NCBI GenBank assembly: GCA_947630775.1
Contig: CANRIY010000002.1
Location: 1 to 35,855, forward strand
DNA from: an uncultured Clostridia bacterium
GTDB lineage: Bacteria > Bacillota > Clostridia > Christensenellales > Borkfalkiaceae
Reading direction: 5' to 3'
Length of the DNA stretch: 35,855 nt
Shown here: piece by piece, positions 9,774 to 35,854 of the stretch
Numbering within the stretch: the first letter of the stretch is position 1
How the letters are laid out: the number at the start of each line of letters is the position of its first letter
The notes under the pieces: model-generated
The model's database searches: none
Seen by the model: only the letters and a program-made list of their open reading frames with translations
Told to the model about the DNA's origin: nothing
Made by a program: the position numbers and the translations under genes

Positions 9774-10968
9774 ATGACCCCGCATAGACGGATGAAACGA
9801 TCCCTTCGACTTCCATTCCATCGTCGGAATACGAAACGTTGCGCTCCGTGATGAGCGGGCGGACGGCGCCGTAGGAAGCCATCTTTTCATAGGGAATGAA
9901 GAGCTTTACGCGGATAAATTCATCTTTAAGGGCGTCGAAGATGTGTTTTTTGAGCTTTTCGAGCCCCAAACCCGCCTGTGCGGAGATGCAAACGACGTCA
10001 CGGGGGAAGCGGTCGGTGTCCTTCACAAGGTCGCATTTGTTCATGACGACGAGGTAGGGGGCCGAAAATCCGAGGTCTTGCAGCGTCGAAAGCGTTGTTT
10101 TCAGCTGCATCTCGTACTCACCCGCGGCATCGCAGACGATGAGGGCAAGATCGCAATTCAAGGCGCTCTCCAGCGTAGATTTGAAAGCTTTGATCAGGTG
10201 ATGGGGAAGGCTCTGCAAAAATCCGACGGTATCGACGAGCAAAAAGGGAACGCCTTCGATCTCGAATCCCCGCGCGGTTGGATCGAGCGTCGCAAAGAGC
10301 GCGTTTTTCACAAAGACATCCGCGCCCGTAAGGGCATTCAAGAGCGTGGATTTCCCGGTATTCGTATATCCCACGAGCGCGATCGTTTTGACGCGTTCTT
10401 TTTTTCTGCGCTCGACCTGCAGCGCACGCCTTTGTTCGGTCTCCTTGAGCTTTTCCTCGAGCGCACGGATGCGCTCACGGATATGCCGCCTGTCTGTCTC
10501 GAGTTTCGTTTCACCGGGGCCGCGCGTCCCGATCCCGCCTCCGAGACGGGAAAGCGCCTCGCCCTTGCCTTTGAGACGCGGATAAATGTATTTGAGCTGG
10601 GCGAGTTCCACTTGGATCTTTCCCTCGCTGCTCTGGGCGCGAAGAGCAAAAATGTCGAGGATGAGCGTCGTCCTGTCGATGACTTTGCGGTGGTCGAGCG
10701 CCTTCGAGATATTCAGAGTCTGGGAAGGGGAGAGCTCCCCGTTGAAGAGGACGGTGAGTTCCAGCCCTTCAAGCCGCTCTTTGAGCTCTAAAAGTTTTCC
10801 CTCCCCGATATAAGTCGCGGGATTGACTTCTCGGATATTCTGGTAGATCGTACCCGCATATTCCGCGCCCGCGCTCTCGATCAAAGAGAGGATCTCCGCA
10901 TGCAGAACATCCGAATTCGGCCCTTCGACGGGTTGGATCACATAGATGATCTCGGGTTTTTCCGTCAC
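9742..10968 (-). CDS. hflX: GTPase HflX (GTG start)
   Basis: RLGGGIGTRGPGETKLETDRRHIRERI, GYTNTGKSTLLNALTGADV, DTVGFLQSLPHHLIKAFKSTLE. Confidence 0.95.
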   Translation of the reverse strand: MTEKPEIIYVIQPVEGPNSDVLHAEILSLIESAGAEYAGTIYQNIREVNPATYIGEGKLLELKERLEGLELTVLFNGELSPSQTLNISKALDHRKVIDRTTLILDIFALRAQSSEGKIQVELAQLKYIYPRLKGKGEALSRLGGGIGTRGPGETKLETDRRHIRERIRALEEKLKETEQRRALQVERRKKERVKTIALVGYTNTGKSTLLNALTGADVFVKNALFATLDPTARGFEIEGVPFLLVDTVGFLQSLPHHLIKAFKSTLESALNCDLALIVCDAAGEYEMQLKTTLSTLQDLGFSAPYLVVMNKCDLVKDTDRFPRDVVCISAQAGLGLEKLKKHIFDALKDEFIRVKLFIPYEKMASYGAVRPLITERNVSYSDDGMEVEGIVSSVYAGSFRPFYRNRDL

Positions 10969-12029
10969 GTTTCGTCCTCCGTCCTGTGCAGTTTCACTTT
11001 CCCCGCAACGGAGCGGCGGTTGTCCTCCGTGATCGCGGCATAGTGCTTCCGCGTCGTATTCACGTCCTTGTGCCCCAAAACGTCGGCCACAATATAAATA
11101 TCGCCCGTTTCACGGTAGAGCGCCGTGCCGTAGGTGGAGCGCAACTTATGCGGCGTGATCTTTTTGAGCGGCGAGACGATCTTCGCATATTTTTTGACAA
11201 GATTTTCGACCGCACGGACGGTGATCCTGCGGTATTGCATCGATAAAAAGAGGGGTGAAGGGGTCTCCTTCGGGACGCGCGGATCTCCTTTTTTCTGTTC
11301 TAAATAGGCGAGAAGGGCATCCGCGACTTCATCCGAAAAGTATAAAATTGCATGACTGCCGCCCTTGCGGGTCACGACAAACGAGTTATTCGAAAAATCA
11401 AGATTCTCGTTATTGAGGCCGACAAGCTCGGAAATACGGATCCCTGTGCCCAAAAACAGAGTTAAAATCGCCGTATCACGCACCTTTGTGCGTTCATGGT
11501 AGCCGCTCGCATGGGGCGGAAGGCCCGATCCGAGCTCCGCAGTATCCAAAAGGTCGGAGATCTCATCGTTTTCAAGGCGGATGATCTCCTTTTCGTGTAG
11601 CTTGGGCGTGGCGACCTTGGAGGGGTTATTGACGCCGATGAGCCCCTTGTTGAAGAAAAACTTGAAGAGGGAACGGACGGTACAGAGCTTGCGCGCCTTG
11701 GCGCGTTCATCGCAGGAGAGATGTTTTTCCCCAAACGAATAGTGGGAGAGATAGGAGAGGAAGATCTCAATGTCGGTATCCGTGACCGTTTCAAGGTCCT
11801 CGAGATTGATCTCGCGGACCGCTTTCCCGTGAAATTTCTTTTTGGAGAGAAAATCAAAAAAGATCCTGAGGTCGTAGGCGTAGTTGAGACGGGTAAGCGT
11901 GCTCGTGCGCGGTTCGATGCCGCGGAAAAAATCCTCGCAAAAATCGGGAAGATCGGAGAGGAGTTCATCGATCTTGTCGAGATTCCTTAAATTGCGTTCC
12001 TGATAGTAATTCGCATTTTTGACTGCCAT
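10965..12029 (-). CDS. Tyrosine recombinase, XerS-like
   Basis: RDTAILTLFLGTGIRISELVGLNNENLDF, ITPHKLRSTYGTAL, VLGHKDVNTTRKHYA give the R-H-R-H-Y set; long N-terminal SAM-like domain like the single-recombinase XerS type. Overlaps the hflX start by 4 nt. Confidence 0.88.
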   Translation of the reverse strand: MAVKNANYYQERNLRNLDKIDELLSDLPDFCEDFFRGIEPRTSTLTRLNYAYDLRIFFDFLSKKKFHGKAVREINLEDLETVTDTDIEIFLSYLSHYSFGEKHLSCDERAKARKLCTVRSLFKFFFNKGLIGVNNPSKVATPKLHEKEIIRLENDEISDLLDTAELGSGLPPHASGYHERTKVRDTAILTLFLGTGIRISELVGLNNENLDFSNNSFVVTRKGGSHAILYFSDEVADALLAYLEQKKGDPRVPKETPSPLFLSMQYRRITVRAVENLVKKYAKIVSPLKKITPHKLRSTYGTALYRETGDIYIVADVLGHKDVNTTRKHYAAITEDNRRSVAGKVKLHRTEDET

Positions 12030-12064: not shown

Positions 12065-12135
12065 TTTTGCGAATAGTTAAATGGGGGAATTTTCGAAAAA
12101 TTTTCGGATGTAAAACCCGAAAGGGGAGTTTTTAC

Positions 12136-12164
12136 TTGACAAGCGTATCGTTTTTTGATAAAGT
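12136..12164 (+). promoter_or_regulatory. Promoter of a putative small structured RNA
   Basis: TTGACA (12136-12141), 17 nt, TAAAGT (12159-12164). Confidence 0.55.
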
Positions 12165-12165
12165 A

Positions 12166-12254
12166 AAGACGAGAACCGAGGTAGGTTGTTAGGTTCCCGT
12201 CTTGGTGAGCCGTTGCGTGGTTGTGAGCCTTTGTGCAACGGCTCCGTCTTTTTG
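12166..12254 (+). ncRNA. Putative small RNA with two strong hairpins
   Basis: Hairpin 1 12166-12177/12192-12203 (11 pairs, one mismatch, 14-nt loop); hairpin 2 12207-12216/12235-12244 (10 perfect pairs) followed by CGTCTTTTTG; own promoter; no ORF. Confidence 0.6.
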
Positions 12255-12266
12255 TCCGCTTTTCGC

Positions 12267-12377
12267 TTACGCTGTCATTTCAAGCAAGACTTTCACGATT
12301 TCCTCAGCCGTGAGACCCTGCTTTTGAAGTGACAAAATGAGCTTCCTGAGTTCAGATGTTGCCATTTCTTCGTCCAT
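12267..12377 (-). CDS. Unannotated 36-aa micro-ORF MDEEMATSELRKLILSLQKQGLTAEEIVKVLLEMTA
   Basis: Own promoter and SD-like AGGTAGGTAAAGG before the ATG; translated by hand; absent from the supplied ORF track (below its length cut-off). Confidence 0.6.
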   Translation of the reverse strand: MDEEMATSELRKLILSLQKQGLTAEEIVKVLLEMTA

Positions 12378-12403
12378 GTCCTTTACCTACCTTTAATAAT
12401 TTC

Positions 12404-12430
12404 AAGTGTAAGGCTCTGCGCCTTACACTT
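12404..12430 (-). promoter_or_regulatory. 5'-UTR hairpin of the micro-ORF transcript
   Basis: AAGTGTAAGGC / GCCTTACACTT, perfect 11-bp arms, 5-nt loop. Confidence 0.6.
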
Positions 12431-12439
12431 CTTAATTGA

Positions 12440-12468
12440 AGCATATCACAGCACGAGAGAAAAGTCAA
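12440..12468 (-). promoter_or_regulatory. Promoter of the 36-aa micro-ORF
   Basis: Minus strand TTGACT (12463-12468), 17 nt, TATGCT (12440-12445). Confidence 0.65.
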
Positions 12469-12554: not shown

Positions 12555-12644
12555 AATTGGTTCTCCGTTCATCTGCAAATAGTGCTTTATTTTATCTAAA
12601 TTTACCTAAATTATAAAATTCCTAAAAAATTTTTCTTAAAACTC

Positions 12645-12673
12645 TTGACATGCATAGGGGAATGTGATACACT
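12645..12673 (+). promoter_or_regulatory. Predicted sigma-A promoter with no assigned product
   Basis: TTGACA (12645-12650), 17 nt, TACACT (12668-12673), AT-rich upstream. Confidence 0.55.
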
Positions 12674-12677
12674 TAGA

Positions 12678-12709
12678 ACTATTCGCAAAATGCTTCTTTT
12701 ACGAATAGT
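12678..12709. other. Candidate tyrosine-recombinase (dif-like) site or operator
   Basis: ACTATTCGCAAAA - TGCTTC - TTTTACGAATAGT: 13-bp arms (12/13), 6-bp centre; 14-bp arm repeated exactly at 12065-12078. Confidence 0.45.
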
Positions 12710-28307: not shown

Positions 28308-28394
28308 GCCGGTGTGGTGGAATTGGCAGACGCGCTGGACTCAAAATCCTGTGGTAGTGATACCGTATCGGTTCGACCCCGATCACCGGCACCA
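28308..28394 (+). tRNA. tRNA-Leu(CAA), CCA encoded
   Basis: Acceptor GCCGGTG/CACCGGC, long variable arm GGTAGTGATACC, T arm ATCGGTTCGACCCCGAT, anticodon CAA at 28342-28344. Confidence 0.95.
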
Positions 28395-28550: not shown

Positions 28551-28958
28551 TCAGATCCTTTCGAGCAATTCTTCGGGCTTGATCGCCGTGACTTTGCTGC
28601 CATTGAAATCCTTGATGTTTCGTGTAACGATATAATCGGCGCGGATCCGTTTTGCGGCAACGCTCTGGAGAGCGTCCTCAAAATCCCCGAATCCAAGGGC
28701 GGCAGCCTTCTTTAAATCGTCCTTTTTCAGATCTGCGATCCCGAGGAGTAGCGAAATTTGCCCGATCACCTCTTTTACGCGCTCCGCATCGAGTTCCTTG
28801 CGCATGATATAGACGATGTTCGGGATAGAGAGCGCGGAGACATAGCCCTCGATCTTCCCGATCTCGCAGAGTTTCAAGATCTTGGCGGATGCGTCAACGT
28901 AGGGCGTGCGATTCGTGAGAACATCCAAAAGAACATTCGTATCAATCAAGATTTTCAT
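28551..28958 (-). CDS. PIN-domain toxin/ribonuclease
   Basis: MKILIDTNVLLDVL; GFGDFEDALQSVAAKRIRADYIVTRNIKDF. Confidence 0.88.
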   Translation of the reverse strand: MKILIDTNVLLDVLTNRTPYVDASAKILKLCEIGKIEGYVSALSIPNIVYIMRKELDAERVKEVIGQISLLLGIADLKKDDLKKAAALGFGDFEDALQSVAAKRIRADYIVTRNIKDFNGSKVTAIKPEELLERI

Positions 28959-34834: not shown

Positions 34835-35854
34835 TTACCCCAAAAACAGCTTTTCGAGCTTCTCCTCGTCGATCTTGCAGCCGATCACGCAGAGTCTGCC
34901 CGTGACGGCGGGCGAACCGACACGGATATCCGCCTCTTCGGGGACGTAATCGAAATACAGCCACTTGTCTCCGCCGTTCAAAATGCCTTTGGCGCGCAAA
35001 ATTTGCCCGTATTCGCCCGAATCGAGCGCGGAGAGCGCCTTTTTGAGGCTTCCCTCCGTGACGGGCTTCGCCGTCTCGACGCCCCAGCTCGTAAACACCT
35101 CATCCGCATGATGGTGGTGATGGTGATGATGGTGATGTTCATGCACATCGTCATCGTCGTCATCGTGATGATGATGGTGATGGCATTCGCAATCGGGATC
35201 GTCGCACTCGTCGTCATCGTCCTCGTCATTTGCCTCGGCGGCAAGTTTTTCAAGCTCCGCGGCGAGGCTGTCCGTCTTCTGCATGGCGAGAAGGATCTCT
35301 TTCCCGCCGAGCGCGTCCCAGTCCGTTGTGACGATCGTAACGGAGGTGTGTTCCTTCAAAAGCGCCGTCGCTTCCTCCGTTTTCTTGGGATCGGACGTAT
35401 GGGAGAGGACGATACAGCTTGCGTTTTCCACTTGGTCGAGGAAGAACTCGCCGAAGTTTTTCAGATACATCTTGCATTTCTTCGCGTCGACGACGGTGCA
35501 GAAGGCATTGAGCGCGCTGTCGGGAACGTCGGCACGTTGGACTGCCTTGATGACGTCGGAAAGTTTCCCCACGCCCGAGGGTTCGATGAGGATGCGGTCG
35601 GGATGGAACTCTTCGGCGACCTTTTTGAGCGCCGCCGCAAAATCCCCCACGAGGGAACAGCAGATACAGCCCGAGTTCATCTCGGTGATCTCGATCCCCG
35701 CGTCTCGTAAAAATCCGCCGTCCACGCCGATCTCACCGAATTCGTTTTCAATGAGAACGACCTTTTCGCCCGCATAGGCTTCCTTAATTAGCTTTTTGAT
35801 GAGCGTCGTCTTTCCCGCGCCCAAAAATCCCGAAAAAATATCGATTTTTATCAT
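34835..35854 (-). CDS. COG0523 (CobW/YciC-type) GTPase, His-rich
   Basis: FSGFLGAGKTTLIKKL, GCICCSL (CxCC metal motif), EPSGVGKLSDV, HHHHHHDDDDDDVHEHHHHHHHHHH. Confidence 0.92.
   Translation of the reverse strand: MIKIDIFSGFLGAGKTTLIKKLIKEAYAGEKVVLIENEFGEIGVDGGFLRDAGIEITEMNSGCICCSLVGDFAAALKKVAEEFHPDRILIEPSGVGKLSDVIKAVQRADVPDSALNAFCTVVDAKKCKMYLKNFGEFFLDQVENASCIVLSHTSDPKKTEEATALLKEHTSVTIVTTDWDALGGKEILLAMQKTDSLAAELEKLAAEANDEDDDDECDDPDCECHHHHHHDDDDDDVHEHHHHHHHHHHADEVFTSWGVETAKPVTEGSLKKALSALDSGEYGQILRAKGILNGGDKWLYFDYVPEEADIRVGSPAVTGRLCVIGCKIDEEKLEKLFLG

Follow-up and report, generated by a model that had tools for sequence, protein, structure and literature searches.

For both Bacteroidetes and enterobacteria, microviruses that integrate at the dif site of the host have been described (PMC3091885, PMC7062461). 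Gokushoviruses make their carriers immune to superinfection (PMC7062461); when the text of that paper was searched, no mention of a repressor was found. Toxins of type I toxin-antitoxin systems are small hydrophobic proteins with a transmembrane segment and a charged C-terminus (PMC6563280), and their mRNA is overlapped by an antisense RNA that has its own promoter. The DNA analysed here, referred to as the window (35,855 nucleotides, on contig C2 of a draft genome totalling 1.64 Mb), comes from a gut bacterium and carries a micro-ORF and a small structured RNA, tail to tail, with a xer recombinase gene on one side and a dif-like chromosome-end site on the other. Both promoters described in the original prediction, along with the 36-aa ORF on the minus strand and the two-hairpin RNA, are present at the coordinates it gave; what it missed appears to be the decisive context, namely that dif-integrating ssDNA phages carry this pair as cargo close to att. 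Judged from its homologous loci, the pair looks like the last surviving control module of such tiny phages, and an antisense-controlled micro-gene in this position would be a small, concrete candidate for lysogeny control or immunity.

The xer gene (10968..12029, minus strand) encodes a XerS-like tyrosine recombinase, with NCBIfam XerS as the best match (6e-55, below its cut-off) and a match to Pfam Phage_integrase. The dif-like site, which corresponds to attR, reads ACTATTCGCAAAA-TGCTTC-TTTTACGAATAGT (12678..12709, plus strand), and the cumulative GC skew of the window turns near it. The pattern TTCGCAAAA-N6-TTTTACGAA was found in 95 of the 103 genomes of the genus, with constant arms and a 6-bp core which varies between genomes. 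It lies nearly always upstream of xer, usually at a distance of 100–650 bases and usually with a single XerS-like gene, a layout which fits the XerS/difSL arrangement (PMC5357621). A dif half-site, TTTTGCGAATAGT (12065..12077, plus strand), overlaps the xer promoter region; it is also present in the module-free relative G135 and is possibly an autoregulatory operator. Wherever a contig reaches both genes, the RNA/ORF pair is located between an alpha-amylase-type gene and xer. A role of the pair as leader peptide or attenuator for xer is unlikely, because xer is served by a promoter of its own and is separated from the pair by a terminator-like hairpin. An Acinetobacter-type dif (pdif) module was likewise rejected, as two inverted pdif sites are needed and no second full site is present. 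Elsewhere in the window, a 135-aa ORF which starts MKILIDTNVLLDVL and has a PIN-domain-like look (28551-28958, minus strand) adjoins a tRNA (28308-28391), and the ORF at 34835-35854 (minus strand) is that of a CobW-like GTPase with a long run rich in histidine and aspartate.

The micro-ORF, MDEEMATSELRKLILSLQKQGLTAEEIVKVLLEMTA, occupies 12267..12377 of the minus strand, stop codon included. Upstream of it on the same strand are an SD-like AGGTAGGT (12385..12392), a predicted leader hairpin of its mRNA (12404..12430) and the promoter TTGACT-17-TATGCT (12440..12468). The leader hairpin is also found in the relatives G008 and G020 and, with other sequence, in G068, while the promoter reads TAAACT in G008 and G020 and is not clear in G068. 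The reading frame is conserved in four genomes, and the homologues fall into two diverged types, within which dN/dS is 0.12 (window and G068, with 83% amino acid identity) and 0.25 (G008 and G020). On the strength of these substitution patterns the ORF is a genuine protein gene whose frame is under purifying selection. The peptides (36–38 aa) are acidic, with a pI of 4.3–4.7 and a charge of −3.5 to −4.5, and are predicted to be amphipathic with two helices; AlphaFold folds the peptide as a helical hairpin with a pLDDT of 91. No transmembrane or hydrophobic segment was found in any of them (maximum 19-residue KD of 0.5–0.8), and searches of Pfam and NCBIfam gave only sub-threshold matches and no known DNA-binding motif. 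The peptide thus falls outside the description of a type I toxin given above, and a classical toxin of this kind is not supported.

The small RNA (about 12165..12254, plus strand) is predicted to form two hairpins and to end at a T-tract terminator. Its promoter, TTGACA-17-TAAAGT with an extended −10 (12136..12164, plus strand), is kept in all full-length copies. The 90-nt RNA folds beyond chance, at −35.2 kcal/mol (z −3.6), with none of 200 shuffles equally good. Both sides have changed at 7 of the 26 stem pairs, giving a covariation score of 0.234 as against 0.147 after shuffling (0/500). Judged by its fold and covariation, this is a genuine structured RNA, and it has a promoter to itself. 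Nothing in the locus reached gathering level in Rfam, where the weak matches look like chance. Conservation of the ORF frame and of the hairpins had been put forward as one test of the original prediction, and both the dN/dS of 0.12 and the seven pairs changed on both sides are in its favour. A −10 box of TAAAGT would put the start of the RNA near 12171, in which case the lower, covarying stem of hairpin 1 may be of greater importance to the minus-strand mRNA.

The SD of the ORF (12392-12385, minus strand) and the apical loop of RNA hairpin 1 (12179..12186, plus strand) carry the identical 8-mer AGGTAGGT, and in G068 both have changed, to AGGCAGGT. Because loop and SD share this 8-mer, the complement of the loop in the ORF mRNA, ACCUACCU, constitutes an anti-SD. 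A trans-acting sRNA that blocks SD sequences is unlikely, since the hairpin-1 loop has the SD sense and not the anti-SD. Nested folding predicted masking of the SD in G008 and G020 but not in the minimum-energy fold of the window, and the plain duplex energies of RNA and mRNA were no better than those of shuffles; the case for SD masking is therefore carried mainly by the co-change. As far as can be read from sequence, the RNA is wholly antisense to the probable 3′ UTR of the ORF mRNA, with full overlap and from its own promoter. The pair matches the type I layout and, by prediction, its anti-SD logic (PMC6733600). The mRNA may end at hairpin 1 or at the terminator relic of a phage capsid gene at about 12102-12134 (12102..12134, no strand assigned), which overlaps a minus-strand terminator-like hairpin and of which AACTCCCCGAAAGGGGAGTTTTT is intact in one G008 locus (G008:C78). 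The complementarity proposed earlier is retained, now with the RNA inside the probable 3′ UTR, and the proposed hairpin-1 terminator becomes one of two candidates. A putative phage micro-gene under antisense control is well supported by these comparisons.

DNA and covariance searches detected RNA homologues in 7 of the 103 genomes of the genus, the window's own included, all of the genomes compared being MAGs (an 'uncultured Clostridia' MAG from rabbit gut is a close relative within the genus). RNA and ORF stand tail to tail in four of these (the window, G008:C78, G020 and G068), and the remaining three retain the RNA without an intact ORF, so that the check in relatives suggested with the original prediction recovered both partners. 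The leader AAGGYAGGTAAAGGANATGGANGA, with up to two mismatches allowed, occurs only at the four ORF loci among the 103 genomes. Among 396 genomes drawn across the order, the covariance model matched nothing except the window's own RNA. A second match in the window's genome (G000:C84) and a match in G014 look like chance repeats, and an RNA pattern match on a viral contig, inside a phage tail-gene-like ORF, was put down to chance. The module was not found in the INPHARED phages or IMG/VR contigs checked, among which no free phage carried it. Compared with G008, a MAG with 5% contamination and two versions of the locus, the window is 88% identical in the leader and 37% identical in the coding sequence; the coding sequence is 80% identical to that of G068. 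These values point to an allele-like swap, in which the coding body would have been exchanged within a constant leader.

The same distribution bears on the possibility of a phage-borne, type I-like toxin-antitoxin pair, in which a toxic ORF would be repressed by the antisense RNA and the prophage stabilised. Type I systems, among them those of C. difficile prophages and aapA/IsoA, are marked by convergent overlap and by an anti-SD in the 3′ UTR, and the RNA often looks decayed where the ORF is not intact, with a stem mismatch and a broken T-tract in G044 and the loss of part of the promoter and of hairpin 1 in the second G008 locus (G008:C83). However, the peptide is an amphipathic, two-helix prediction with a net charge of about −4 and no transmembrane segment, and the xer-dif interval holds the RNA alone in the close relative G144 (xer 98% identical) and is without the entire module in the near-identical G135 (xer 99% identical over the query). 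Such a pair is considered unlikely. The suggestion of a 'TA-like or antisense-regulated micro-gene' has accordingly gained in its second half, from the tail-to-tail arrangement and the SD/loop co-change; a TA-like pair is possible, with the features of a toxin lacking, and the doubt about a classical toxin voiced at the outset was justified.

Microviruses and filamentous phages use the dif-xer interval of this genus as a landing strip. It holds integrated microviruses with Phage_F capsid and Rep proteins in G147 and G123, and in G070 an inovirus-like prophage with Zot-like and Rep_OBD genes and, downstream of Rep, a minus-strand HTH_3 repressor. At loci L094, L095, L096 and L073, in other members of the genus, dif is occupied by integrated elements of the inovirus-like (Zot, Rep_OBD, HTH_3), microvirus and tandem ssDNA-phage kinds. 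A 6.9-kb contig of G008 (C78) has the RNA/ORF pair immediately flanked by dif and by the major capsid gene of a Microviridae phage (Phage_F, E 1.5e-95), in the order capsid gene, terminator, RNA, ORF, phage promoter, dif and amylase side. A decayed capsid 3′ end, short and spotted by eye with no tblastn match, precedes the RNA in G020 and G008:C83. G068 has the pair at the corresponding position of a different element, which carries a dif-like att and an ORF resembling replication proteins and is called inovirus-like from the look of its genes, with Pfam Rep_1 found only in the neighbouring element.

What remains in the window is the capsid terminator relic, the RNA, the ORF, an AT-rich phage-type block (12590..12644, plus strand), an orphan phage promoter TTGACA-17-TACACT beside dif (12645..12673, plus strand) and attR/dif. 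The block, which is common to the G147 microvirus prophage, and the promoter ('CTTGACA-17-TACACT') resemble the attR flank of that prophage, where the promoter is directly beside att. As homologous loci place the pair inside dif-integrated ssDNA phages, the window copy is read as a prophage remnant. The pair was found at dif beside xer, with phage genes or relics flanking it in homologous loci, as in the remnant of a Xer-dependent integrated ssDNA phage (IMEX); an intact IMEX does not fit, because two full dif-like sites should flank it and the window has one full site plus the xer-side half-site. Since rep in G147 starts directly after attL, at the opposite att end from the matching promoter, the circular form of the phage would have att between the two, and integration would uncouple rep from this promoter.

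The G147 and G123 prophages carry no detectable homologue of the ORF, and G147 (L096), which lacks the module, has a different minus-strand ORF of 48 aa with no Pfam match between capsid gene and attR. Since both are integrated regardless, the ORF is not required for integration, which weighs against its being a Xer activation or directionality factor for integration or excision at dif whose synthesis the RNA would time. This role is judged quite improbable, although the ORF is always beside att, is small, acidic and helical, and is common to two unrelated ssDNA phage types that need the same Xer/dif. It is also conceivable, if very improbable, that the hairpins act as DNA, as a complementary-strand origin or packaging signal with the RNA incidental; stable, conserved hairpins in the capsid-rep intergenic region of an ssDNA phage would suit such a function, but a conserved sigma-70-type promoter with fixed 17-nt spacing, the T-tract and the SD/loop co-change would not, and the G147 phage is without the hairpins.

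The reading preferred here, held tentatively and at somewhat less than an even chance, is that temperate ssDNA phages (Microviridae and inovirus-like) which integrate at the XerS-like dif of this genus carry the pair as a module close to att, that the window copy is the remains of such a prophage, and that the ORF is an immunity factor repressed by the RNA. A lysogeny or superinfection-immunity micro-gene is the best guess for the ORF and is inferred from its minus-strand place by att, from the HTH_3 gene of G070, from a minus-strand XRE-type HTH gene in 8 of 40 sampled xer-dif intervals (L082-L085, L087-L089 and L100), which may be a domesticated phage immunity repressor, and from the exchange of the coding sequence behind a leader that stays constant. 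The ORF, opposite to the other phage genes, would be expressed in the lysogen, and its peptide would act by protein-protein contact. The plus-strand RNA would repress it through a duplex with the probable mRNA 3′ UTR, and the anti-SD loop of the mRNA could mask its own SD. After loss of the phage, the ORF may have been retained because it still protects against ssDNA phages that use dif. Against the preferred reading stand the acidic 36-aa peptide without a Pfam match or a known DNA-binding motif, the three genomes with the RNA only, the duplex energies and the window fold described above, the absence of the module from G147 and from the free phages checked, and the contamination of G008, whose key contig is only 6.9 kb long. 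Stated generally, the idea is doubtful: gut Clostridia would have temperate ssDNA phages with an att-proximal immunity micro-gene that is under antisense control and has swappable coding cassettes, and hosts would keep it, once the phage has decayed, as minimal protection from ssDNA phages that use dif.

With type I systems of convergent 3′ overlap (C. difficile CD2517.1-RCd8, txpA/RatA and bsrG/SR4) the locus shares a tail-to-tail micro-ORF and antisense RNA, separate promoters and a prophage link; unlike theirs, the peptide here is acidic, non-membrane, 36–38 aa long and without homology. With aapA/IsoA of Helicobacter and hok/Sok it shares a downstream anti-SD in the mRNA that is able to mask the SD, whereas masking here is predicted, is backed by one compensatory change and is absent from the nested fold of the window. 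RstR-like HTH immunity repressors of CTXphi-type, dif-integrating filamentous phages are encoded on the minus strand by att, opposite to the phage genes, and their coding cassettes swap in a constant frame, as appears to be the case here; in contrast to these repressors, the ORF has no HTH domain and is apparently under antisense-RNA control. Dif-integrated Microviridae proviruses, the BMVs of Bacteroidetes and the enterogokushoviruses, have in common with the present elements the capsid and Rep genes and integration at dif by way of the host Xer, from which the present case differs in a host with a single XerS-like recombinase and in the extra RNA/ORF module at att.
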